Below, in pieces: positions 9,536 through 33,088 of a stretch of 34,643 bases of DNA. The stretch spans positions 1 through 34,643 of the IMG/VR virus record IMGVR_UViG_3300025309_000278; one strand, 5' to 3'. Source of the DNA: a virus. The first letter of the stretch is position 1; every line of letters starts with the position of its first letter. The position numbers and the translations under genes are program-made. The notes under the pieces are model-generated. The model ran no database searches and was not told where the DNA came from. It saw only the letters and a list, made by a program, of their open reading frames with translations.

Positions 9536-10702
9536 TTATAAAGCGCCGATACTCATAATGGCATGGCGTTTTTCCTGCTCCATTTGTAAACCGCACTCTG
9601 TGAGATATTCATCGACTTGGCTATCTTCTCCAGGGTTCTGGCGATTGGTCAAAAGTTTTGTATCTCGGTTGCTTAGATTGCGGAGTGTTAAAGCCTCCAT
9701 ATCAAGTCCTACGGCATAATTTCCGTAGGTCACTCCTGCGAGTAATGGATGCTTAATGATGTGCAGTGTTCCGTGTGGAGAATCGTAAGTAACAATTCTC
9801 AGCCCGTACGTTTTTGTCGGATTGACAATCTGTACTTTACCTTTTGCCCAGCTGTTGATCATTGAGACCACTGCTGCTGATGCAAAAAGGTATTTTTCTG
9901 TGTTTCCGTAAGCAAAGAGACTTTCAAGCCAGCTTTCAAATTCTGACTCGGTATCTACGCTTGCTGTGGCATAGGTAAGAATTCTTGCCAGAAGTCCGCC
10001 GGTAAATCGTTTTGGATGTGTGCCTGCGGTAACAATTCCTTTCTTACCAAATAAGAAGGATCTTTCGATATCGACCATGTGCTCGATACCTTTTTTGCGT
10101 CTTTGATAATCAAAGTCGCTTTCTTTGGTCCATCCTTTAGTGTTTTTTGCCGATTCTGTGATTCCGACTGGAGTTCTGAAAATCTGACAGTAGTTGGAGA
10201 CTTCTGTAATAACAGTAGATTTAATCTCTCGAAGTCCTGCTCCTTCTTCATTTGCATTTCCGATAAGCCAGACATCTCCTGATGCATCTGCTGCTGCTCC
10301 GGTTGCACCTCCAAGTTCTGCACCAACTGTAACGGTGTTAGCGTCAACAATGGCTGTAACCTGGAATACCCATTTTTGCTTGGCAACTAAGATAATGTCG
10401 CCAATCTGCAGATAAGCTGCTTGTCCGGTAAGCGTTAAGTTTCCGCCGTCTGGATCGACAGTTCCTGAACCTGTGAGTTGTCTGCGGCCAAATTCATCCT
10501 CGAACCACTTAAATTCAGGGTCCATGGATTCCTGCTTTTTCATCGCCTTACCTTCTCCGGTTACTGGATCTTTTCCAGCGTTTGTCAATATAGCTAAGAG
10601 TGGATATCTATTTACATCCAACAGCGACACGACATCCGCCACATCATATTTGCGTGTTACTCCTAAATTTCCTGTTCCTTTAATTCCTGTTGCTGATGGC
10701 AT
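9536..10702 (-). CDS. Major capsid protein, SU10/DUF5309-like HK97 fold
   Basis: A 388-residue protein with a strong Shine-Dalgarno (AAGGGGGTGA). It has the features of the SU10-type major capsid family: N-terminal DVADVVSLLDVNRYPLLAIL, then a beta insertion with GTVDPDGGNLTLTG and IGDIILVAKQKWVFQV. The conserved central stretch FRTPVGITESAKNT and the helix RRKKGIEHMVDIERSFLFGK follow, then the P-domain-like TYGLRIVTYDSPHGTLHII, and a C-terminal YLTECGLQMEQEKRHAIM. Length suits a capsid subunit without a protease domain. It is preceded by the acidic scaffold gene, the usual order. I infer that it forms the procapsid shell with that scaffold. Confidence 0.88.
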   Translation of the reverse strand: MPSATGIKGTGNLGVTRKYDVADVVSLLDVNRYPLLAILTNAGKDPVTGEGKAMKKQESMDPEFKWFEDEFGRRQLTGSGTVDPDGGNLTLTGQAAYLQIGDIILVAKQKWVFQVTAIVDANTVTVGAELGGATGAAADASGDVWLIGNANEEGAGLREIKSTVITEVSNYCQIFRTPVGITESAKNTKGWTKESDFDYQRRKKGIEHMVDIERSFLFGKKGIVTAGTHPKRFTGGLLARILTYATASVDTESEFESWLESLFAYGNTEKYLFASAAVVSMINSWAKGKVQIVNPTKTYGLRIVTYDSPHGTLHIIKHPLLAGVTYGNYAVGLDMEALTLRNLSNRDTKLLTNRQNPGEDSQVDEYLTECGLQMEQEKRHAIMSIGAL

Positions 10703-12721: not shown

Positions 12722-13120
12722 TTATACTAATGGGAATGGTTTTTCAGCATTCCATAAAATTGCTCCTATATATACTTCTAATGAAGGAGCTGCTCCTCCT
12801 GTTATTGTCACGACTGCACGCATGTATCTCTTTTTGCGCTCGGTTTGCATCTTATAAACCGTATCAGCTGTGACAGTAACTTCCTCTCCACCTTTGGTGA
12901 TAGTTGCTCCGGAGGAAAAATCAGAAACATCTGCTTCTTCAATCTTTACTTTTGTCGAAGTCTGATCTCCTAGGTTTCCAATGGCAACATCAACGAGCGC
13001 AGTATCAAATGCAGGTTTGTCGCTAACATAAGTATCAACACTAGCTCCATTAGTTGTTGCAGTAATCACCTGAATGGGGAGTATGGTTTTTGTTTGTATA
13101 TTTTGATTAAGTGTCCTCAT
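12722..13120 (-). CDS. Small beta-rich capsid-associated protein, first gene of the capsid operon
   Basis: A 132-residue protein. The ATG at 13120 (MRTLNQNIQTKTILPIQ) is preferred; a TTG further upstream would lie inside the leader hairpin. The fold looks like a beta sandwich. Its landmarks are ALVDVAIGNLGDQTSTKVKI, then ITKGGEEVTVTADTVYKM, KKRYMRAVVTITGG and a C-terminal VYIGAILWNAEKPFPLV. This pattern is typical of short phage decoration or head proteins that begin with a 'fields of beta strands plus YxRA' motif. No Shine-Dalgarno is visible: the start codon follows the leader hairpin directly, as for portal. Confidence 0.65.
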   Translation of the reverse strand: MRTLNQNIQTKTILPIQVITATTNGASVDTYVSDKPAFDTALVDVAIGNLGDQTSTKVKIEEADVSDFSSGATITKGGEEVTVTADTVYKMQTERKKRYMRAVVTITGGAAPSLEVYIGAILWNAEKPFPLV

Positions 13121-13140: not shown

Positions 13141-13214
13141 GGGGTTGCAACTTCTAAATACACGTAGTGCGTATACTCAGAAGCCACAACCCCGATAGTT
13201 TCGTTAGGTGTTAC
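13141..13214 (-). promoter_or_regulatory. Leader hairpin and conserved box before the capsid operon (attenuator-like)
   Basis: On the minus strand, CCTAACGAAACTATCGGGG (13190-13208) leads into a long hairpin. The outer arms are GGGGTTG and CAACCCC (13187-13193 with 13141-13147) and the next arms CTTCT and AGAAG (13179-13183 with 13151-13155). The three bases between the arms pair as G-U only in the minus-strand RNA and mismatch on the plus strand. The inner arms (ATACGC with GTGTAT) also need one G-U pair, so the RNA is probably made leftward. AATTTATTAGATTTTTT follows before the ATG. The same box precedes a terminator upstream of the portal gene. Confidence 0.6.
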
Positions 13215-13228
13215 TTCCTAATGATTAC

Positions 13229-13258
13229 ATTCTATTTGGCAAGAACTGTACATCTCAA
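13229..13258 (-). promoter_or_regulatory. Leftward late promoter for the capsid operon
   Basis: On the minus strand, TTGAGA (13253-13258) and TAGAAT (13229-13234) are spaced 18 bases apart. The spacer contains ACAGTTC (13243-13249), eight bases before the -10. The portal promoter (20925-20954) has TTGAAA, the same ACAGTTC position and TAGCAT with the same spacing. The -35 lies inside the repeated AAAGTTTATTGAGAT element (13252-13266). The promoter is called from pattern only. Confidence 0.6.
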
Positions 13259-13282
13259 TAAACTTTCTGTCATTAATTGTCC

Positions 13283-13311
13283 TTGACATGTGATAATTAA
13301 TTATTTATATT
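13283..13311 (+). promoter_or_regulatory. Sigma70-type promoter for padR-ArsC-ATPase cassette
   Basis: TTGACA at 13283-13288, a 17-base spacer and TATATT at 13306-13311 give a near-consensus vegetative promoter on the plus strand. It is divergent from the late capsid promoter about 25 bases away. The predicted transcript start falls at the left edge of the 13320-13336 palindrome. Confidence 0.65.
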
Positions 13312-13319
13312 GATCCTAG

Positions 13320-13336
13320 ATATCGAAATTCGATAT
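13320..13336. promoter_or_regulatory. Palindromic operator, probably for the PadR regulator
   Basis: ATATCGAAATTCGATAT is a perfect 8-bp inverted repeat around one central base, lying just after the -10 box and 13 bases before the padR start. PadR regulators usually autorepress from palindromes in this position, so a repressor site that blocks the cassette is inferred. Confidence 0.6.
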
Positions 13337-13349
13337 TATACACTGAACA

Positions 13350-13649
13350 ATGCTCACAAAAAACTTTTTCCGTGGATTTATTAAGCTTCATATTCTTCAT
13401 CATGCGTCAAAGGAACCTGTGTATGGTGTTTGGATAATTGAGGAACTTAATAGGCATGGATATAAACTAAGTCCTGGAACTTTGTACCCTATCCTACACT
13501 CTCTTGAAGAAGAGAAATTACTTACATCTCGGAGTGAGACAGTAGAAGGCAAGATTCGTAAATATTACGAAATAACTGATGAAGGTAAAAAAAGACTAGA
13601 AGAATCAAAATTAAAAGTCAAAGAATTAGTAGATGAATTATATCAATGA
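13350..13649 (+). CDS. PadR-family transcriptional regulator
   Basis: A 99-residue winged-helix protein: GFIKLHILHHASKEPVYGVW, then the recognition region YKLSPGTLYPILHSLEEEKL, and the wing/strand GKIRKYYEITDEGKKRLEE. The 'LSPGTLYPILHxLE' and 'RKYYxITxxGKxxL' signatures are diagnostic of PadR. The family usually represses neighbouring efflux or stress genes and releases DNA on binding a small ligand. Its stop overlaps the reading region of the ArsC-like gene, so it heads a three-gene unit with the reductase and the P-type ATPase. Promoter and palindrome lie immediately upstream. Confidence 0.9.
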   Translation: MLTKNFFRGFIKLHILHHASKEPVYGVWIIEELNRHGYKLSPGTLYPILHSLEEEKLLTSRSETVEGKIRKYYEITDEGKKRLEESKLKVKELVDELYQ

Positions 13650-13650
13650 G

Positions 13651-14073
13651 ATGAAAAAAGTCCTGTTTCTTTGTTTCCATAACTCCGCAAGATCGCAAAT
13701 TGCTGAAGGGTTGCTGCGTTATCTCGGCGGAAATAAATATAAGGTTTATTCTGCCGGTATCGAAGCGACTTTTGTCAAACCTCAAGCAATTTTAGTTATG
13801 AAGGAGATTGGCATTGATATATCAAACCAAAGAAGTAAAAAACTTGACCAATTTCTGAATGAACAGCTTGACGAAGTTATAACAGTATGCGATGAGGCAA
13901 ACGAAGCCTGCCCAGTGTTTCCTGGCGCAAAGAATAGAAGGCATTGGAGCATGCCAGATCCTTCCCATGCAAAGGGAACGAAGGAAGAAGTTTTGACTTT
14001 TTATCGTCAAACGAGAGATTTGCTTCGAGAGAAAATAGAATCAGAATTATTAGTAGAAAATAGGGAACCATAA
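13651..14073 (+). CDS. arsC: Arsenate reductase (ArsC, low-molecular-weight phosphatase type)
   Basis: A 140-residue protein; MKKVLFLC is the preferred start (a start six codons earlier would overlap padR). The P-loop CFHNSARS (C-x5-R, residues 8-14) has the HNSARS form typical of thioredoxin-linked ArsC. The second and third redox cysteines are present (ITVCDEANEACPVFPG, residues 80 and 87). The acid loop DPSHAKGT is also there. These three cysteines favour arsenate reduction to arsenite over tyrosine phosphatase activity. It is coupled with padR and lies seven bases before the ATPase gene. No ArsR, ArsB or Acr3 gene is seen nearby, so the substrate in this cassette could differ. Confidence 0.82.
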   Translation: MKKVLFLCFHNSARSQIAEGLLRYLGGNKYKVYSAGIEATFVKPQAILVMKEIGIDISNQRSKKLDQFLNEQLDEVITVCDEANEACPVFPGAKNRRHWSMPDPSHAKGTKEEVLTFYRQTRDLLREKIESELLVENREP

Positions 14074-14080
14074 TAAAAAT

Positions 14081-16609
14081 ATGGAACATTTAGCAAACGA
14101 TCATCAATGGTGGAGTCAACCAGTAAATCAACTAATAAAAACATTCAATCTTGATGTTGCAAAAGGACTCTCTCAAAAACAGGAGAAAGAAAATAGGGTT
14201 TCCTATGGTACAAACACTCTCACTGAAATTAAACCCACCAGTGTAGGAGAGCTTATCCTTGAAGGCATAAAAGAACCAATGATGATAGTGCTTTTATCCA
14301 TTGGAGGCATTTCACTTCTTTTTGGCAAACCTGTTGAGGCAATAGTTATGGTCTTTGTAGTAGCAGCGTATATCGGCGTTGAATTTATCAATAAATTTAG
14401 AACCGATAGAACAATGGCTCGCTTGCGTGAACTTACAGAACCGACAACAAAGGTTTTACGGGACGGAAAACAGCAAGAGATACAAACAAGTGAGGTAGTA
14501 GTTGGAGATGTTATCATCCTCTCAGAAGGTGTGCGTGTTCCAGCTGATATGCGACTAGTTGAATCGTATGGAATGATTGTCAACGAAGCTTCTTTAACTG
14601 GTGAGTCTCTTCCTGTAAATAAAGATGCCAAGGCTGAAGTGGAAAAAGAGACACCGCTTGCAGAGAGGCGAAATTGTGTTTTTTCAGGGACAACAATTCT
14701 TTCAGGTGAAGGCAAGGGAATTGTCATGGCAGTTGGGGAAAAAAGTGAGTTAGGGACAATTGCAACTGAAGTTCAAGCAAAGCGGAAAGAAAAAACCTAC
14801 ATCCAAAATGCCATGACCAAATTAGCAAAAACGCTGGCAGTATTGGCAATTATTGTCAGTATTATCATCCCTACAGTTGGTTTATTGCAAGGACAGAGTT
14901 TTCAGGAGATGGTTTTAACCTGGCTTGCCTTAACGTTCCTGATGATACCAGGACAACCACCAGTCATTATTACCATGTCTCTTGCTCTTGCTTCATTTGC
15001 GTTAGCAAAGCAAAAATTGGTTGTAAAACGTCTACGGGGAGTTGAGGTTCTGGGTCAGGTAACTACAATAGTCACTGATAAAACAGGCACAATCACTGAG
15101 AATAAAATGGCGGTTAATTCCCTTATCCTAAGCGATGGAAAAGAACTAAAGCCAGATCAATTACCAGAGGACTTGTTGCAGAAAATTAGTCTGTGTTTGC
15201 CCCAGTATTCAACCGACCCAACGGATAAGGCAGTTAATGAAGTGTTAGTGGGATCAAAAAGAGACACTAACTATATTTCACAAAAAGGTTTCTCAGAAAA
15301 TAAGCCGTGGCGGACAATGGTTTATAAGGAAAAAAATACCCAACTGTTTGCCTTTGCAGGTGAACCGGAAAGAATTATCAACTCAACAGAGTTACCGACA
15401 AAGCAAAGAGAAAAGCTGCTAGATATTCTTAAAAAAGAAACAGAAAAAGGACACCGAGTGATTGGTTATGCGTTTAAGGATAGTGGTAATGACTTTTTAG
15501 AAAAAACACAGTTTTTAGCATTGGCCGTTCTTTCTGATCCGATTCGGCCAGGCGTGAAAGAAGCTGTAAATTCTTTGGGAAATGCTGGAATAAATACCTA
15601 CATAGTAACAGGTGACCATCCGACAACTGCCAAAACAATAGCTGAGTCAATAGGGATTAAAGGTGATGTGCTGCAAGGCTTAGATCTTGAAAAAATGAAT
15701 GATGCTCAATTGTCAGAAGAACTTTCAAGTATCAGGGTATTTGCCCGTATTTCACCGTCTCAAAAACAGCGCTTGGTTACACTTCTGAAAAAACAAGGTG
15801 AAACAGTGGCAGTAATTGGGGATGGGGTCAATGACGCACCAGCACTTAAAGCTGCTAGTGTAGGTATTGCTATGGGTGAGATAGGTACAGATTTAGCGAA
15901 AGAAACGGCGGATTTAGTTTTAACCGATGACAATTATGTTCATCTCCCAGAGGCAATTGCGTTGGGACGCAAAGCACTTGATAACTTCCGCAAAGGCTTA
16001 ACTTATTATCTTTCCGCCAAGGCAATACTCCTTGCAATATTCCTTGTCCCGCTTGCTTTGGGTATACCTTTCCCATTTGCGCCAATCATGATTATTCTTA
16101 CCGAACTCTTGATGGATTTAGCCTCCTCTACGATCTTTGTAACGGAAAGTGCAGAACCTAATGTACTAAACAGAAAACCGCAGACCATTACAAACTTTTT
16201 GAATAAAACAATTGCTCTAAAGATTTTGAAAAACGGAGCATTTTTAACAATAGGTATTCTTGCTGTTTATCTCTGGCTTTATTATCAGACGCACAATGTG
16301 GTACTCGCGCAGACCGCTGCATTTGTTACTTGGTTGTTGGGACATATTATGTTAGCTCTCAACTTGAAACAGGAGAAGCTCTCTTTACTCAAGCAGGGGC
16401 TTTTCTCTAACCATTTCGGCTTATTCTGGTTAGTAGGAATGATTCTTCTTTCTTTCATCATCACAAATGTTCCATTCGTCTATTCATACTTTCATACAAC
16501 CTTTATCCCTTTGAATGTATGGATAGGGATTTTAGTAATAGTTTTCATCTCAACATGGTGGATTGAGTTGCGTAAAATTGTAAGCCACGGTCATGAAAGT
16601 TTCTCATAA
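14081..16609 (+). CDS. P-type (P2-like) cation-transporting ATPase
   Basis: An 842-residue membrane pump with a complete catalytic set: TGES (173-176) in the actuator domain, DKTGT with phosphorylated D333, TGDHP (510-514) and GDGVNDAP (580-587). Two N-terminal and about six C-terminal membrane segments are visible. Membrane segment 4, which reads PEGLP in calcium pumps, reads IPGQPPV (289-295), so the usual acidic ligand is missing. Segment 6 keeps TELLMD with two acidic residues. The transported ion cannot be read from this. Position between arsC and an MFS remnant suggests a metal, metalloid-related or ion stress cassette. Confidence 0.88.
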   Translation: MEHLANDHQWWSQPVNQLIKTFNLDVAKGLSQKQEKENRVSYGTNTLTEIKPTSVGELILEGIKEPMMIVLLSIGGISLLFGKPVEAIVMVFVVAAYIGVEFINKFRTDRTMARLRELTEPTTKVLRDGKQQEIQTSEVVVGDVIILSEGVRVPADMRLVESYGMIVNEASLTGESLPVNKDAKAEVEKETPLAERRNCVFSGTTILSGEGKGIVMAVGEKSELGTIATEVQAKRKEKTYIQNAMTKLAKTLAVLAIIVSIIIPTVGLLQGQSFQEMVLTWLALTFLMIPGQPPVIITMSLALASFALAKQKLVVKRLRGVEVLGQVTTIVTDKTGTITENKMAVNSLILSDGKELKPDQLPEDLLQKISLCLPQYSTDPTDKAVNEVLVGSKRDTNYISQKGFSENKPWRTMVYKEKNTQLFAFAGEPERIINSTELPTKQREKLLDILKKETEKGHRVIGYAFKDSGNDFLEKTQFLALAVLSDPIRPGVKEAVNSLGNAGINTYIVTGDHPTTAKTIAESIGIKGDVLQGLDLEKMNDAQLSEELSSIRVFARISPSQKQRLVTLLKKQGETVAVIGDGVNDAPALKAASVGIAMGEIGTDLAKETADLVLTDDNYVHLPEAIALGRKALDNFRKGLTYYLSAKAILLAIFLVPLALGIPFPFAPIMIILTELLMDLASSTIFVTESAEPNVLNRKPQTITNFLNKTIALKILKNGAFLTIGILAVYLWLYYQTHNVVLAQTAAFVTWLLGHIMLALNLKQEKLSLLKQGLFSNHFGLFWLVGMILLSFIITNVPFVYSYFHTTFIPLNVWIGILVIVFISTWWIELRKIVSHGHESFS

Positions 16610-16660
16610 TAATCTTGTCTATTTTTAATATGAATTTTCCTTTCCAAAGGAGGTGTATCC

Positions 16661-16768
16661 ATGAAGAACCAGATCCGCAACCTCTCCAAGTCATCAGCAT
16701 TTCGATTCGTTCTAACGATGGGTATTGTCGACCTGTTTGGTGACATGGCCAATTCCGGTGGAGCGAGC
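16661..16768 (+). pseudogene. Truncated N-terminus of an MFS transporter, fused in frame to the lytic transglycosylase
   Basis: A strong Shine-Dalgarno (AAAGGAGGTG) and ATG start 36 codons: NLSKSSAFRFVLTMGIVDLF, then GDMANSGGAS. This matches the first membrane segment of MFS permeases often encoded next to PadR genes (FRFxLxxGIVxLFxDM-type). It runs in frame into MKKKKNN, the natural start of the next protein, so the rest of the transporter has been lost. It is evidence of a recombination junction near 16750-16770. Confidence 0.6.
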
Positions 16769-17707
16769 ATGAAAAAGAAGAAAAACAATAAAATAAGGAA
16801 AGCATTATTACTTATTTTCATTATTATTCTTCTCTCGTTTCTGGCTATTTATAGCATAAAATCTACTCCTCAGCCGCAAGAGACAACGCAACAGTCTACA
16901 CCTATACCTCTTCAAACATCAAAGCTCTCATCTTGTTCTTTCGTAAGAAGTGATCAGCAAGACCCGCAGTTTTGTAATCATAATTCCTGTACATCTGCTC
17001 TCCCATACAAAAGTACTAAACTCATATCTTACTTTGAAGAAGTTTCTCAGAAGACAAGTATTCCAGCGGAGTTATTAGCTGCAATTGCCCGAATTGAGTC
17101 AACCACAAAAGACTTTACAATCTCTGATTATACAGATGAGCAAATAACTGCTATGGAAGATGTAGAGAAAATTAAAGAGAATATTGACACAATGGTTGAT
17201 AGTGGTAAAAAAGCAGCTTGTCCACGAAGTATTACCGGAGCATTGGGACTCATGCAGATGCAACCGCCAGAGCATATTCATAATGCAATAAGAGAGGAGT
17301 TGCTTAATCGGTATAACAGAGAACAAATGCTTCCATTATTTGCGATAGAGAATGATGCATACAATAGAGAGGCTGCAATACGGTCTTACGAGCAAATAAA
17401 CGCCCATGATGAAGAAGCTATGCTGCATGGAGCAGCATTTGCAGGAATTGATAGACCATTAAAACGAGAAGATTTCTGTCACCCAAAGACAAATCTTTAC
17501 TTAGCTTCAGGACTTATCTTAAAAAAAATGCAAAGACTGGGATATGGGGATAGTACAAAATGGAATCCCACATGGTCAAATGATAAGCAAGCTATTGAAG
17601 CACTTATTACATCTTACTACGGCTGTTTACAATATCCGAATTGCAATACCGGACCATATAGTTATTCAGATGATGTCTACAAAGGTATACAGTCTTGCAA
17701 AGGGTAA
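16769..17707 (+). CDS. Membrane-anchored lytic transglycosylase (SLT-like)
   Basis: 312 residues from the ATG at 16769, which has GGTGGAG five bases upstream. The N-terminus is basic followed by one membrane segment (ALLLIFIIILLSFLAIY), then a Gln/Thr/Pro-rich linker. The catalytic region has the SLT-type IPAELLAAIARIESTT, whose Glu is the probable acid. GALGLMQMQP follows, and later NLYLASGLILKKM; the last helix of the fold ends the protein. Several cysteines (CSF, CNHNSC, CLQYPNC) suggest disulfides outside the cytoplasm. It would cut the glycan backbone of peptidoglycan. The upstream in-frame MFS remnant may add a leader. A role in cell-wall remodelling or secretion is inferred. Confidence 0.75.
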   Translation: MKKKKNNKIRKALLLIFIIILLSFLAIYSIKSTPQPQETTQQSTPIPLQTSKLSSCSFVRSDQQDPQFCNHNSCTSALPYKSTKLISYFEEVSQKTSIPAELLAAIARIESTTKDFTISDYTDEQITAMEDVEKIKENIDTMVDSGKKAACPRSITGALGLMQMQPPEHIHNAIREELLNRYNREQMLPLFAIENDAYNREAAIRSYEQINAHDEEAMLHGAAFAGIDRPLKREDFCHPKTNLYLASGLILKKMQRLGYGDSTKWNPTWSNDKQAIEALITSYYGCLQYPNCNTGPYSYSDDVYKGIQSCKG

Positions 17708-17824
17708 TCTAAATCCACAACTCAAGTTAGTATTTTAAACACACATTGTTCTTAGCATTACTATATCAAAGTTATCAGTTATACTTAAGATAGTACATAA
17801 TTTACATTATAGAAAATTCAGAGT

Positions 17825-17989
17825 TTAAATCTTCTTCCTTAGATATTCTGAATACTTCTCGCACTCTACTGCAAATAATGCACATATTGTCGATAAGCGC
17901 TTTAATGCTTTAAGAAGTTCTCTCCTTTGCTTGTTTATTACTGCAATCTCCTTTTTAGTTATAGCCTTCTCGTTCATCATCTTAAGCAT
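17825..17989 (-). CDS. Small charged helical protein
   Basis: A 54-residue minus-strand reading frame from the ATG at 17989 (MLKMMNEKAITKKEIAV), entirely helical and Lys/Glu-rich (RRELLKALKRL) with a Cys pair at its end. A longer frame upstream would cross the XRE gene in antisense and is unlikely. It is divergent from the XRE gene, a common arrangement for a small regulator or antitoxin, but no Shine-Dalgarno is obvious. Function unknown; may not be real. Confidence 0.35.
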   Translation of the reverse strand: MLKMMNEKAITKKEIAVINKQRRELLKALKRLSTICALFAVECEKYSEYLRKKI

Positions 17990-18058
17990 AAATACTAGCA
18001 CAAATGAATACAAGGAGTATGTCGAAAATGATACAAGCAGTCTATAGGATTGTAGGGT

Positions 18059-18286
18059 ATGGGAAAACCTATAACGCATCGAGACGTTCTCGAGAAATTT
18101 GGTGCAAGACTCCAGAAAGTAAGAAAGGAGAAGCGTGTTAGCCAAGAAGAGCTTGCTGCCCAGTTGTCGATGCATCGTACTTATGTTGGGATGATAGAGA
18201 GAGGAGAAAGAAATCCCACAATAAGAACGCTGTATAAGATTGCTAAAGCGTTAAAGGTGAGTGCTTCTGATTTACTTCCTTTTTAA
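18059..18286 (+). CDS. XRE-family helix-turn-helix regulator
   Basis: A 75-residue protein that is essentially a single Cro/CI-type helix-turn-helix: LQKVRKEKRVSQEELAAQLS, then MHRTYVGMIERGERNPTIRT, then LYKIAKALKVSASDLLPF. The 'SQEELAAxxxxHRTYVGxIERGERNPT' signature is typical of chromosomal or mobile-element XRE regulators. It lies in the accessory cassette, not with the lysogeny genes, so its targets may be the cassette or host genes. A 12-base repeat (ACAAGGAGTATG) lies upstream of this gene and of the response regulator. Confidence 0.85.
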   Translation: MGKPITHRDVLEKFGARLQKVRKEKRVSQEELAAQLSMHRTYVGMIERGERNPTIRTLYKIAKALKVSASDLLPF

Positions 18287-18439
18287 TCATCTTGCCATCA
18301 AAAAATAAATTCCGGAAATAATAAGAAGAACTAGGACTACGCCGACTATTACAGGTGTTCTGTCTGGGGACTTTCTTTGCTCAATAATAGCTCCGTAGGA
18401 AAAAGGCCGTTTATCTGGTCCTTTTTTAAAGAATTTCAT
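18287..18439 (-). CDS. Small single-pass membrane protein
   Basis: A 50-residue frame. A basic N-terminus (MKFFKKGPDKRPFSYGAIIE) is followed by one strong membrane segment (VIVGVVLVLLIISGIYFLM). GAAGGAAGG lies immediately before the ATG. Its stop abuts the XRE gene stop, convergent with it. The lone TM with a short cytoplasmic end could be a membrane anchor or a holin-like or toxic peptide; there is nothing to decide. It is short but well formed. Confidence 0.5.
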   Translation of the reverse strand: MKFFKKGPDKRPFSYGAIIEQRKSPDRTPVIVGVVLVLLIISGIYFLMAR

Positions 18440-18536
18440 CCTTCCTTCAGTATATCAAGAATTTTACTTATTTTTATACACAAGGAGTATGCACTTCTTA
18501 CACTTTTCACACAAAAAAAGGTTAAAATAAATTTTT

Positions 18537-18968
18537 GTGAAGCAAAAACCAAACCGCGAGCATAAAAAATTTCCCAAACTGCGATTTTTAGTCATTGATG
18601 ATGAGGTTGCTATTGGTGAGGCTATCTGTTTTGCGATTGATATGACTGGAAATGATACGGTTCGCTTTTCCAATCCTGCTGACGCAGTAAAAGATTTTAG
18701 AAAAAACCCCAGTAAATATGATGGTGTGTTTACTGATTTAAGTATGCCTCAGATGAGTGGAGAAATGGTCATAGAGAGAATAAGAAAAATTACCCAAGAG
18801 ATCCCTATTGTTATTTGCACTGCAACAGGAGGAATCTTTACTACTGAGGATCTGGTTAAAATGAACGTTTTATCTCTTATTGCAAAACCTTTTGAGTTGA
18901 GCGATATTGAATTAGCAGTCAAGCAAATACAAGAAAACTATATGATGCGAAATAGCCTACTAAAATAG
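18537..18968 (+). CDS. Stand-alone response-regulator receiver domain
   Basis: A 143-residue receiver with no output domain. The phosphorylation pocket is intact: acidic pair D21/D22 (FLVIDDE), acceptor D67 (GVFTDLSMPQMSG), T95 (IVICTAT) and K117 (LIAKPFE). A basic N-terminal extension of about 15 residues precedes the fold, and the start is GTG. Single-domain receivers usually act by protein contact in phosphorelays. No histidine kinase is in the window, so the partner would be in the host. It ends three bases before the convergent portal gene. Confidence 0.85.
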   Translation: MKQKPNREHKKFPKLRFLVIDDEVAIGEAICFAIDMTGNDTVRFSNPADAVKDFRKNPSKYDGVFTDLSMPQMSGEMVIERIRKITQEIPIVICTATGGIFTTEDLVKMNVLSLIAKPFELSDIELAVKQIQENYMMRNSLLK

Positions 18969-18971
18969 AGG

Positions 18972-20828
18972 TTAAGCGCCAAGCATTTGACCAATCAGCG
19001 GTATTTTGTTCATTAGCTCTCGAATTCCTCCGGCTACCCCTGGACCAGGTGGTTGAGTCCCCTCAACGGGCGACACAGGCCCATTCTGGGGGTTGTTCAT
19101 TGGTGTTTCTACTGTCGATGCTTCTGTTTGGTCTGGTCCTAGCAATAATTCGATATAACTGTCCAGGTCTAGTTCTTCGAGCATTAGCTTTTGTAGCTCT
19201 CTTTTTCGTTTCAACCATCGCTGAATGTCTGCTGGATCTTTAGGATCTGGTTTGTCCTGGGCAATCAGCTTATCGTAGAGAAGCAGTATTTGGTTGATTC
19301 TGGCTTGTTGGTCCGGTGGAATAACTGGTTCTACCTCTACAATTGCATCTACTTGTACTTTTTTGTCTGCCTCTTTGAATTCTTTAAAGTCCACTTTATC
19401 TCCTACAATTCTATAAAGTTTATCTTTATCTACAAATTCTTGGTTCATTTGAATGAGAATGTTTACTAGTTGGGTTAATGCTACGGCTACAGTCTGTGCA
19501 TTCATGCTTAGGCGGAGATTACTTTGTCCCAAGAGCATTGCCACTTTTCCTAGTGGCTCATTGGTTGATTGTGGCATTCCTTGCATATATTCTCCAAGTG
19601 CTAGGGTTCTGGAGATTTCATCACGCATTAATTTGTCCTCATTTACTCCCATCAGGCTTATTTCTGGTGGCCTTTCGATAACTGCATCGTCCATTTTGCG
19701 AAGTTCCCAGATTGCTCCAGGGGAGAAGATAATGTCGTTTTTGGTAATACCGGAGTCCTTCCGGATTTTGACTACTGGGTCTAGCATTAAAACCACATCA
19801 TCCATTCTTTGGTTTCTAAGGTCTGCAATCTCTGTAATCGTTGTTTCTACAGGTTCGATATGTCCGGTTGCCCAGAATTCCCAGAGGAGTGGCATATCCG
19901 GCAGGTCTATAAAAATCTTTCCAGTGTTTACACCAAGATAGGGGTTTTCGTCATCTCTTATAACAACTTCGCCATTTGATATAACAATGAGTTTATCTTC
20001 CTCAAAGTCCCAGCATTCCCACAGTTCCAGTTGCTTTTCGCCTTCTGCTTTGGCTGGGAGGATCTTTCCTTCTCCGCCTTGCTGGTCTTTTTGACTGCCT
20101 GCAATTTGCGACATTTTCTTTGTATTGACTTCATATCGCTCTTTTTTCCAATCCTCAACCACTTTTGACTCACAGAACTCAAGATTCTTATAAATCTTAT
20201 TTTCGCCTCTGTTTTTTTCTTCTTTCTCTATTTTCTCTTTCTTTTTGACAATCCGATGAATTAGCCACGGACATGCCTCCTGCAGGTCTTCTGTTTCCGG
20301 AGCGGGCAGGAAGTCCCAAAGGTCTACAAGACTGGCTGTGGGGTCATCGTAGGTTGTTATGGTCTTACCATCTTTGGTAACACTTGATACCTTCCATGCT
20401 AGTTTAAGGATTCCATTCCCATATATGACTGAGGACTCTATCCAGTGGGGCAGTTTCTTTGCCAGCTCTATAATGTCAAAGTCGTAATTTACCAAATCAT
20501 CCCATGACTGTAGAGACTCTGACTCAACATCTTGCTTCTCTCTGGGAAGAATGCGTGTTTTGCGCTTTGCTGTAGCAAGTCTAGATACCACTGTCTGGAC
20601 GATTTCAAAGGCAATAGGTGGCATGAGTCGGGTGTTATAAGCGTAGTTCTGCTTATTCTGGTAAGCTCTGTAGAGCATGTACATCCGTAGCCATTTTGCT
20701 TGGTAGGGATCTCTGAATTCTTTGGCACGCTTAAATCTTGCCTTCCATTTGGTCAAGAGTTTTTGCTCCTCATCGGTAGGTTCATACTTTCTAGTCTCGG
20801 TTATTTTTTCTTCTTTTACTTCTGGCAT
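18972..20828 (-). CDS. Phage portal protein
   Basis: A 618-residue protein matching the SU10/P22-type portal class by size, order and motifs: KWLRMYMLYRAYQNKQNYA, MPPIAFEIVQTVVSRLA, then SSVIYGNGILKLAW and the aspartate/proline-rich wing DPTASLVDLWDFLPAPETED. Later regions include ITEIADLRNQRMDDVVLML, TNEPLGKVAMLLGQSN and LRLSMNAQTVAVALTQLVN (stem and crown helices). A proline-rich C-terminal tail follows. It would form the dodecameric DNA gate of the capsid. No Shine-Dalgarno is seen; the ATG lies right after a terminator hairpin (20841-20889). It is separated from the rest of the virion genes by the accessory cassette. Confidence 0.85.
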   Translation of the reverse strand: MPEVKEEKITETRKYEPTDEEQKLLTKWKARFKRAKEFRDPYQAKWLRMYMLYRAYQNKQNYAYNTRLMPPIAFEIVQTVVSRLATAKRKTRILPREKQDVESESLQSWDDLVNYDFDIIELAKKLPHWIESSVIYGNGILKLAWKVSSVTKDGKTITTYDDPTASLVDLWDFLPAPETEDLQEACPWLIHRIVKKKEKIEKEEKNRGENKIYKNLEFCESKVVEDWKKERYEVNTKKMSQIAGSQKDQQGGEGKILPAKAEGEKQLELWECWDFEEDKLIVISNGEVVIRDDENPYLGVNTGKIFIDLPDMPLLWEFWATGHIEPVETTITEIADLRNQRMDDVVLMLDPVVKIRKDSGITKNDIIFSPGAIWELRKMDDAVIERPPEISLMGVNEDKLMRDEISRTLALGEYMQGMPQSTNEPLGKVAMLLGQSNLRLSMNAQTVAVALTQLVNILIQMNQEFVDKDKLYRIVGDKVDFKEFKEADKKVQVDAIVEVEPVIPPDQQARINQILLLYDKLIAQDKPDPKDPADIQRWLKRKRELQKLMLEELDLDSYIELLLGPDQTEASTVETPMNNPQNGPVSPVEGTQPPGPGVAGGIRELMNKIPLIGQMLGA

Positions 20829-20840
20829 ATTTTTTGCAAC

Positions 20841-20889
20841 AAAAAAGGGCTTAGATTCATCTACTCGTGTGAGTAAAAAATCTAAGCCC
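20841..20889 (-). terminator. Intrinsic terminator/attenuator hairpin upstream of portal
   Basis: On the minus strand GGGCTTAGATT (20879-20889) pairs with AATCTAAGCCC (20847-20857), an 11-bp stem. The inner arms TACTC/GAGTA form a second small stem. Six T (20841-20846) follow, which is a textbook terminator. It lies between the predicted portal promoter and the portal start only about 15 bases downstream, so portal expression requires read-through. Confidence 0.7.
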
Positions 20890-20918
20890 CGAAAGATTCG
20901 TTAGGCGAATTTCGTTAC
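20887..20918 (-). promoter_or_regulatory. Conserved leader box before the portal terminator
   Basis: On the minus strand CCTAACGAATCTTTCGGGG runs into the terminator and repeats the box before the capsid operon (13190-13208). In the RNA, CGAAAUUC and GAA-UC-UUUCG can fold around the CCUAAC loop. AATCT of the box can also pair with AGATT of the terminator arm, offering an antiterminator. The pairing is inference; the sequence repeat is seen directly. Confidence 0.5.
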
Positions 20919-20924
20919 AGCTTC

Positions 20925-20954
20925 ATGCTACAAAAGTGGAACTGTCTTTTTCAA
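20925..20954 (-). promoter_or_regulatory. Leftward late promoter for portal
   Basis: TTGAAA (20949-20954) and TAGCAT (20925-20930) with 18 bases between them, and ACAGTTC (20939-20945) inside the spacer at the same position as in the capsid-operon promoter. The predicted start is just before the leader box. The layout agrees with 13229-13258 over about 60 bases with gaps of at most one. Confidence 0.6.
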
Positions 20955-23720: not shown

Positions 23721-24614
23721 TTATTCTGCAGGTACGTTGGAGAAGCTTACTAGCTGGCCACCCTGTGTATATGTGATGGTTAATTTTTGTTTATCGCTCT
23801 TCCAAATAAAGACGTAATTTATTTGTTCACCTTCGCCTTTAGTATCAGCTTCTAGATTAAAATTCTCTAAATTTATTTTGCCGATTGCCTTCTCGTGTTT
23901 TTTTATAAAATCATTGGCTAATTGTTCTGCCTCTGCTTGTGTGTACCGTGGGGTATAATCATATTCTTTTTCAGGGCTTGACCAGCGCGAACCATCCTTA
24001 TTTTCTCCCCATGTTCCTTGCTTTGGAGACATCTCTATCACTTTGTTGGTTTTGATGTCTATAACAAATAAATCAAAATCTACAGTATAGGTTTCTATTA
24101 CTGGTTTTTCATCAGGTTTATTAGGATTCTTAACTACACATTCATACTTCACGGGTGCGTCCGGTCTATCTAAGAAGTCTCTTATGGCTGCTACTGCTTT
24201 TTCCTGTTCCTCCGGAGCTCTTGCACTAACAGAACACCACTCCTGTTGTGTTTGCTTGTATTTCTGAGTTTCCTTATCTCTGTATGATGGGTCGTTAAAT
24301 AAAAGGTTTGACAGTTCCTGTTGAAGTTGGTTTCTGAGGTTCACAAGTGCCTCTAGAATTGATCCTTTTGCCATAACCTGGGAATTGGTCGTTACTCCGA
24401 AGAATAAGACCACCAAAACAATTGCTGCAAAAGCATAGGGTACACTAGTTGCCCAGAAGGATTTGCGTTGGGGAAAATATGTTTTCACTTCCTGCTCCAG
24501 GTCTTCTTCTTCATGTATTTTGGATAAGATTTGCTTCTCCAATGCTTTTATGTGCATTGTGTCTTTTTGTTCTTCCTGTTCAAATGCTGATTTGATTACA
24601 TTTTTGAATTTCAT
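23721..24614 (-). CDS. Membrane anti-sigma factor with extracytoplasmic PepSY-like domain
   Basis: A 297-residue protein. The cytoplasmic N-terminus (residues 1-55) is a short acidic helical domain (DTMHIKALEKQILSKIHEEE), the usual size of a sigma-binding region. One membrane segment follows (SVPYAFAAIVLVVLFFGVTT). The outside part carries a PepSY-like domain (VIDIKTNKVIEMSP; RYTQAEAEQLANDFIKKH; INYVFIWKS; LVSFSNVPAE) homologous in order to the secreted protein downstream. Its ATG overlaps the sigma factor's stop by four bases, which is the standard sigma/anti-sigma coupling. Ligand unknown. Confidence 0.7.
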   Translation of the reverse strand: MKFKNVIKSAFEQEEQKDTMHIKALEKQILSKIHEEEDLEQEVKTYFPQRKSFWATSVPYAFAAIVLVVLFFGVTTNSQVMAKGSILEALVNLRNQLQQELSNLLFNDPSYRDKETQKYKQTQQEWCSVSARAPEEQEKAVAAIRDFLDRPDAPVKYECVVKNPNKPDEKPVIETYTVDFDLFVIDIKTNKVIEMSPKQGTWGENKDGSRWSSPEKEYDYTPRYTQAEAEQLANDFIKKHEKAIGKINLENFNLEADTKGEGEQINYVFIWKSDKQKLTITYTQGGQLVSFSNVPAE

Positions 24615-25114
24615 ATTAGTGCTTCTTTGAGCTTGATAATCGCTCTATAAAAACGCATCTTGACTGCTGCCTCTTTAGTATCCAGGGCAACAGCTATTTC
24701 TTTGAATTCCATTTCCTCAACAATCCGGAGTCTTATAATTTCCTGTTCTTCTGGTTTCAGCTTCAGTAACTCTCTCTTTACCCTCTCTATATCCTTTTCG
24801 TGGGTAATCTCTGCATCCATCATGTCCTCTACATCACTATTGTCAAAGAGTTCTATGTTATTTTGCTCTATAGAAACTGTTTTCTTTTTGGACCTCATCT
24901 GGTCTGCAATCAAGTGCCTGCAGATAGTAAGCAGCCAGCTTTTTAGCTCGCCTTCGCTTTTGAAATTAAATTGTTTATAATTTTTCATTGCTTTCAGGAA
25001 AGTCTCCTGTACTATGTCGTCCACATCTTCCTGTTGATACAGGGATTTCCTGGCAAAAAAGTACACGAGCCTAATATAATTTTTGACTACTTCATCGAAC
25101 GGTGGCTTCTGCAT
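24611..25114 (-). CDS. ECF RNA polymerase sigma factor (RpoE-like)
   Basis: A 167-residue protein with both ECF domains. Sigma2: IRLVYFFARKSLYQQEDVDD, then IVQETFLKAMKNY and the -10 contact region LKSWLLTICRHLIADQMRSK. Sigma4: LKLKPEEQEIIRLRIVEEME, then FKEIAVALDTKEAAVKMRFY. The acidic linker (residues 85-110) is longer than usual. It directs RNA polymerase to its own regulon when released from the anti-sigma factor encoded next. A sigma70-type promoter (25139-25167) lies upstream. Its promoter targets could not be deduced from the window. Confidence 0.85.
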   Translation of the reverse strand: MQKPPFDEVVKNYIRLVYFFARKSLYQQEDVDDIVQETFLKAMKNYKQFNFKSEGELKSWLLTICRHLIADQMRSKKKTVSIEQNNIELFDNSDVEDMMDAEITHEKDIERVKRELLKLKPEEQEIIRLRIVEEMEFKEIAVALDTKEAAVKMRFYRAIIKLKEALI

Positions 25115-32848: not shown

Positions 32849-33088
32849 ATGGAAAACAATAACTCAAAATCCCCAGAAAAAGAAATTAACGAACTACCGG
32901 CCAATTCTTTAGTTACTAGGGAAGAGTTGGACAAATTTAAAGAACTTGCACACAAAGAGTACGGAGTGGATCTAACTGATGCACAGGCATTTGAGCAAGC
33001 CACCGCTTTATTGCTTTTGTTCGATACTGTTATAGAAACGACTCTTGTTTCACGCAAAAAACGAGTTAACATCGACACAAGCTTTTAG
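32849..33088 (+). CDS. Small protein upstream of integrase
   Basis: A 79-residue acidic, helical protein (SLVTREELDKFKELAHKEYG, then EQATALLLLFDTVIETTLVS) with a short basic end. It sits immediately after an operator-rich region and 33 bases before the integrase start. Many phages encode a small recombination directionality or control protein there, but the sequence gives no proof. A similar 'KFKELxxKEYGVxLTDxxAxExA' pattern is typical of small phage or mobile-element proteins of unknown function. Confidence 0.55.
   Translation: MENNNSKSPEKEINELPANSLVTREELDKFKELAHKEYGVDLTDAQAFEQATALLLLFDTVIETTLVSRKKRVNIDTSF

Follow-up and report, generated by a model that had tools for sequence, protein, structure and literature searches.

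The 34,643-nt viral record IMGVR_UViG_3300025309_000278 of the IMG/VR database (hereafter the window, meaning that whole stretch of DNA) carries two copies of an RNA leader on its minus strand, one before the portal gene and one before the capsid operon. Each copy consists of a promoter, a short box, CCTAACGAAnCTnTCGGGG, and a strong hairpin. Judging by its anatomy, conservation, covariation and distribution, all read from sequence, the leader is likely to be a transcription attenuator, at which transcription would terminate by default and read through when a small competing hairpin, P1, is stabilised. Such a switch probably decides when virus particles are made. The leader is not in the public RNA-family library Rfam. 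Little is known of gene timing in the phages of the uncultivated, ultra-small bacteria of the candidate phyla radiation (CPR, or Patescibacteria), and the leader provides a concrete, covariation-supported RNA element that marks their late modules, together with two covariance models by which more can be found.

Anatomy of the two leaders

The original prediction described two sister leaders, and both lie where it placed them, on the same strand. The box, searched as CCTAACGAAWCTWTCGGGG, has exactly two matches in the window, at 13190-13208 and 20887-20905 on the minus strand, and the promoter-like pattern likewise has exactly two, at 13229-13258 and 20925-20954, also on the minus strand. The chance expectation in shuffles is 0.04 matches (<=3 mismatches), and two matches were reached in 1/100 and 0/100 shuffles. 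The minus-strand RNA of the two leaders folds far below shuffles (z -8.1 and -6.5). Its folds are also more stable than those of the plus strand, at -42.0 against -31.3 and -36.5 against -32.0 kcal/mol, in support of the earlier argument from G-U pairs that the structure is read leftward.

The portal leader begins with a promoter at 20925-20954, recognised from the sequence and its relatives, in which a -35 element TTGAAA (20949-20954) and a -10 element TAGCAT (20925-20930) are separated by an 18-bp spacer. Box and P1 occupy 20886-20906, where GCCU-AA-CGA (20898-20906) pairs with UCGGGGC (20886-20892) according to box search, nascent folds and pair counts. An intrinsic terminator, defined by folding and covariation, follows at 20841-20890, with a hairpin at 20847-20890 and six U at 20841-20846; its first five bases are the 3' strand of P1. 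The portal gene itself (SU10-like, Pfam PF23899, 18972-20828, minus strand) has its ATG about 12 nt beyond the U-tract.

The capsid leader repeats this arrangement. Its promoter, at 13229-13258, has TTGAGA (13253-13258) and TAGAAT (13229-13234) on either side of an 18-bp spacer, and in its box and P1 (13189-13209) ACCU-AA-CGA (13201-13209) pairs with UCGGGGU (13189-13195), with an A-U pair at position -1 instead of the usual G-C. The hairpin at 13141-13193, placed by folding and comparison, has 24 bp. It is followed by CCCCAATTTATTAG, which lacks a U-tract, whereas nearly all relatives have one in their capsid leaders (CCCTTTTT and similar). Both strong hairpins of the original prediction are real, but of the two copies the portal one alone is a textbook terminator. 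The operon most likely starts at the ATG 13118-13120, the TTG at 13150 being the longest-open-reading-frame call; its first gene, supported by open reading frames and kept in relatives, then covers 12722-13120 on the minus strand, and the operon also includes the major capsid protein gene (SU10_MCP in Pfam, 9536-10702). As had been noticed before, no Shine-Dalgarno sequence is visible for either window gene; AGGAGG precedes the capsid operon in some relatives (L007, L112).

Comparison with relatives divides what had been described as a single leader box into two: an ordinary -35/-10 promoter upstream, and a functional part, CCURACG..CGGGG, that is best taken as half of P1. The shared pattern of TTGARA, ACAGTTC and TAGMAT is indeed present in both window copies, but ACAGTTC is common to these two only: in the portal leaders closest to them (L009, L080, L072) it has drifted, and other relatives lack it. 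Not being kept, it is ruled out as a Q-like binding element. Promoter position and spacing, on the other hand, are kept in relatives, the box lying 18-25 nt from the -10 element in most leaders, and no conserved element was found in the spacer between -35 and -10 when it was compared across relatives.

Conservation and covariation of the leader family

Altogether 45 leaders were collected from phages and prophages of Patescibacteria (Microgenomatia, Doudnabacteria and Paceibacteria). Related portals occur in viral contigs and in genomes of Woesebacteria, Gottesmanbacteria, Roizmanbacteria, Daviesbacteria, Shapirobacteria, Doudnabacteria and Nomurabacteria. In group 1, the close relatives, the portal gene and the capsid operon are each preceded by the leader. 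In group 2, the distant relatives, it stands before the portal gene; there CYTGACGGC is followed, usually after an additional hairpin, P2, by a segment that ends in ACGGGG and by the terminator. Covariance models built from 23 group-1 leaders (R1) and 10 group-2 leaders (R2) each detect members of the other group, so the leaders form one family. The count leaves out one R1 match (L106) and two candidates rejected as leaders for having the hairpin only and no box (L119, L120).

In this family the box pairs with the start of the terminator 5' arm (GCCU-RA-CG with CG-GGGC) to form P1. Since GGGGC is both the 3' strand of P1 and the first strand of the terminator, P1 excludes the terminator base. 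Nearly all leaders have a hairpin with a U-tract, that is, an intrinsic terminator between promoter and gene, and P1 is an alternative helix that shares a strand with it. When the nascent RNA is cut before the terminator 3' arm, P1 comes out in most leaders as the minimum-energy fold or as a major alternative, and in many its probability is near 1. Forcing P1 costs 5-19 kcal/mol, and the upper stem is then detached from the U-tract.

The terminator is well supported by covariation, with double changes in 10/22 pairs in group 2 and 5/13 pairs in group 1 and a score that no shuffle reached; in group 1 its 5' GGGG does not vary, whereas the 3' partners are C or U. P2, which tops P1 in most group-2 leaders, has double changes in five pairs, and the joint covariation score of P2 and P1 was matched by 0/500 shuffles. 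For group-2 P1 alone, 94.8% of cells are paired, compared with 35-49% in slid controls, and the score was matched by 8/500 shuffles. In group 1 the seven core pairs of P1 are intact in 28/28 leaders, two outer pairs that were tested are not part of it, and the whole-structure shuffle test was not passed, being uninformative because the core does not vary. Three independent changes in the shared strand are compensated both on the box side and in the terminator 3' arm: at position -1 in window leader A and in L010/L011, C to U in the arm accompanies G to A in the box flank and the 3' arm, and in the L117 clade a G-to-A change of the arm is matched by C-to-U changes in both box and 3' arm. Because such compensated events are few, we regard P1 as supported but not proven.

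Other pairings were tried and discarded. An antiterminator between the 5' CAGAAG and CTTCTG of the hairpin arm is present in L010/L014 and absent in L012, L078 and L079. Hairpins of the box with its upstream flank (UUAGG/CCUAA and UUCG/CGAA) form in the window and some capsid leaders and are broken in L072c and others. An outer helix UAAC/GUUR around the terminator is inconsistent; it was spotted by eye in several leaders of group 1 and left uncounted. A lax scan of viral contigs for CTGACGGC..CTAA..ACGGG gave many matches, which we take as chance since 0/80 loci fetched matched R2.

Distribution, genomic context and the phage sigma factor

The original prediction had proposed a covariance search in CPR phages and prophages, and the search returned homologous leaders with covariation; of the outcomes named there as counting against the leaders, neither absence of homologues nor absence of covariation was encountered. 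Whole-genome searches gave two phage copies in well-covered group-1 prophages with R1 and one copy per group-2 phage with R2, and no clear copy elsewhere in the host assemblies of about 1 Mb that were searched. The remaining significant matches are mostly reverse-strand echoes of leader hairpins, with a few hairpin-only cases (L119, L120); L119 has, at about 1501-1607 (G501), a near-perfect inverted repeat like the leader terminator, without promoter or box. In broader surveys R1 matched 9/374 Microgenomatia genomes and R2 8/380 Patescibacteria, and in the class of the Nomurabacteria genome G025 R2 matched 5/384, four of them with the box. The motif had not been recognised as a known riboswitch or nut/put site; in agreement with this, no Rfam 15 family reached its gathering threshold. 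Leader DNA had no blastn match among GenBank phages and plasmids, and a PubMed Central search, with partial coverage of the literature, found no description of such an element.

The leaders were also predicted to couple the two late modules; the leader, however, is distributed more widely. In G533 and in the class of G025 (L117, L295-L298) it heads an operon of a 66-aa protein (called as 81 aa in L295), a SpoVG-like protein and a replication-related-looking protein, followed in L298 by a protein that by eye resembles the window's TerS. In G666 and G163 a DUF5659 gene lies downstream. Because it heads such replication/terminase-type operons or a DUF5659 gene in other phages and elements, the leader is a portable control element and not one specific to capsid and portal. 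About 0.9 kb past a leader in G666 lies a group I intron-like match (L118 2486-2702, minus strand; 41.3 bits, below the gathering threshold of 50), near a GIY-YIG-like open reading frame. The window in turn encodes, at 32849-33088 on the plus strand, a 79-aa protein that adjoins the serine recombinase and is related to a 57-66-aa protein near the group-2 leaders of G533 and G666.

More distant relatives with portals about 40% identical (L026, L027, L031, L036) have a promoter-like site just before the portal start, with no leader or terminator in between. Since the promoter of these leaderless relatives sits directly at the portal start, the position of the promoter seems to be old, and the leader to have been inserted between it and the gene. 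In four others (L015, L017, L023, L024) the portal is immediately preceded by a terminator-like hairpin, but the box differs (TTACGATCAAGAGCCC / ATACGTCCAAGAGCCC in L015 and L023); these may be attenuators of a parallel type.

The window encodes a sigma factor of the extracytoplasmic function (ECF) type at 24611-25114 on the minus strand, assigned by PHROG, Pfam and PDB relatives, with region 2 (PF04542, 1.4e-15) and region 4 (PF08281, 2.1e-10). The gene is phage-located, at 64-83% identity, in G001, G002, G003, G005, G009, G015, G023 and G024. No copy is present in G004, G018, G066 or the group-2 phages examined, and their hosts contain distant copies only; in G014 the region expected to hold it is probably off the contig. 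Carriers of the gene have degenerate late promoters (CTWGnA..TAGnCT and similar), whereas those of non-carriers are mostly canonical or nearly so (TTGACA-type with TAAAAT, TATAAT or TACAAT; TTGCAT..TAGAAT at group-1 portals). The attenuator is found in both. It is paired with a phage sigma factor whose presence tracks promoter type. From this correlation we infer a match between sigma factor and promoter; most simply read, the late promoters of the window lineage would have come under the phage sigma factor while the attenuator was retained. The adjacent gene at 23721-24614, which overlaps the sigma gene by 4 nt, might encode an anti-sigma factor.

Between the portal gene and the capsid leader lies oppositely oriented cargo (13350-18968, plus strand), which by Pfam comprises a PadR regulator, a low-molecular-weight protein phosphatase, an 842-aa P-type cation ATPase and an SLT-domain protein. 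The leader-to-leader distance in group 1 ranges from 2 kb, without cargo, to 42 kb, and a second promoter and leader would make the capsid module tolerant of cargo that follows the portal gene. Besides the SU10-type portal and capsid, the window encodes a GpA-type terminase, a ParB-methylase protein and the serine recombinase.

Proposed mechanism and comparison with known systems

We infer termination, read-through, an effector and the polarity of the switch as follows. Each late module would open with a promoter and then the attenuator, at about +12 to +20. The nascent RNA would first fold P1, (N)CCU-RA-CG with CG-GGG(N), to which distant relatives add the helper hairpin P2. After the next 35-70 nt the 3' arm of the strong intrinsic terminator could capture the same GGGG strand, and because the terminator is 5-19 kcal/mol more stable it would win by default and a short RNA would be released. 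An effector that stabilises P1 and its bulge or internal loop would block the terminator base, so that polymerase enters the portal or capsid genes. The effector is most likely an RNA-binding protein encoded by phage or host, or possibly a small molecule. In the window lineage the phage ECF sigma factor probably controls initiation at the late promoters as a second gate.

The attenuation or antitermination leader of the original prediction has thus gained the anatomy of an attenuator and a newly identified competitor, P1; an antiterminator protein was not found. Several observations weigh against the attenuator. P1 reaches a probability of only 20-49% in the nascent folds of the window's own two leaders, and the window capsid copy, lacking a U-tract, may not be a terminator. 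In group 1 the only double change in P1 is the A-U for G-C of the window capsid leader; one P1 pair is broken at position -1 in L118, and L012/L048 have U.U at -2. In gene-content comparison, only structural and packaging proteins are common to all leader-bearing phages, and the proteins common to the phages and the group-2 elements are mainly generic small ones, a small mobile-genetic-element protein and DUF5659. The CAT RNA-binding domain of BglG and LicT (PF03123) is absent from 19 carrier genomes and records, some of them fragments, with control genomes positive, and no antiterminator Pfam family, Q included, matched the window proteins scanned, from a record that may be partial. In view of the missing CAT protein, Q-like element and common non-structural protein, the effector could be a diverged phage protein, a host factor or a small molecule; an antitermination factor or ligand is what the attenuator predicts.

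The bulge, or the internal loop between P1 and P2, might instead bind a metabolite or RNA-binding protein of the host, which would make the state of the host the trigger of the phage modules. The group-2 P1, internal loop and P2 are aptamer-like, with conserved unpaired GA, GC and UAA, no phage protein is common to all carriers, and in other elements replication-type and DUF5659 operons, too, begin with the leader. However, no Rfam riboswitch or ribosomal-protein leader matches, no copies were recognised before host genes in the genomes searched, and group 1 lost P2 and retains only a 7-bp P1, which makes such a host-sensing leader unlikely. Processive antitermination of the lambda Q or HK022 put type, in which a promoter-proximal DNA or RNA box modifies polymerase to ignore the leader terminator and later ones, would make P1 a recognition hairpin and not a competitor of the terminator. 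The order of promoter, short leader, terminator and late genes is that of pR'-tR', the promoter-box distance is fixed, the leader is restricted to phages and elements, and the invariant box would suit a recognition element. Yet the promoter spacer has no conserved element, Pfam finds no antiterminator domain among the window proteins scanned, and the box overlaps a terminator strand whose changes are compensated on both sides, which recognition by itself does not predict; we consider this improbable. That there is no switch at all, promoter and strong hairpin merely yielding a noncoding RNA of about 80 nt or the hairpin insulating or stabilising the 5' end of the mRNA, would suit the several genes without Shine-Dalgarno sequences that begin right after the hairpin, but is most improbable, as the leader stands at the operon head wherever the downstream gene was examined, notably portal or capsid, P1 pairing and P2 covariation would be left unexplained, and an unconditional terminator would silence essential genes.

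We thus favour the attenuator. Its extension to a portable phage-borne family in CPR, set by a novel protein or small molecule as antiterminator and joined in one lineage by a phage ECF sigma factor for two-gate control, is a tentative proposal, somewhat less likely than not.

Among known systems, lambda pR'-tR' with Q likewise has its late genes downstream of a promoter and of a promoter-proximal terminator that needs read-through. The CPR leader differs in having no conserved DNA element between -35 and -10 and an RNA that competes with the terminator, and no Q family protein was seen among the window proteins scanned. HK022 put consists of two hairpins without an overlapping terminator; there, as predicted here, read-through is governed by a phage RNA hairpin close to the 5' end, and here too no phage protein might be needed. 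The CPR leader has one hairpin, or P1 and P2, before its terminator; the hairpin shares its strand with the terminator, and the leader has no Rfam match. With the attenuators of riboswitches and ribosomal-protein leaders it has in common the antiterminator/terminator pair and, in distant members, a conserved aptamer-like part; unlike them it matches no Rfam family and, in the genomes searched, occurs in phages and mobile elements only. Compared with the ribonucleic antiterminator (RAT) of BglG, SacY and LicT, the CPR hairpin is much smaller, sits in phage late modules, has no CAT domain in carriers or hosts, and has a box that presumably departs from the RAT consensus. In both, a short bulged hairpin overlaps the terminator 5' arm and the two structures are mutually exclusive; in RAT, protein binding stabilises the antiterminator, and we propose that P1 would be stabilised likewise.

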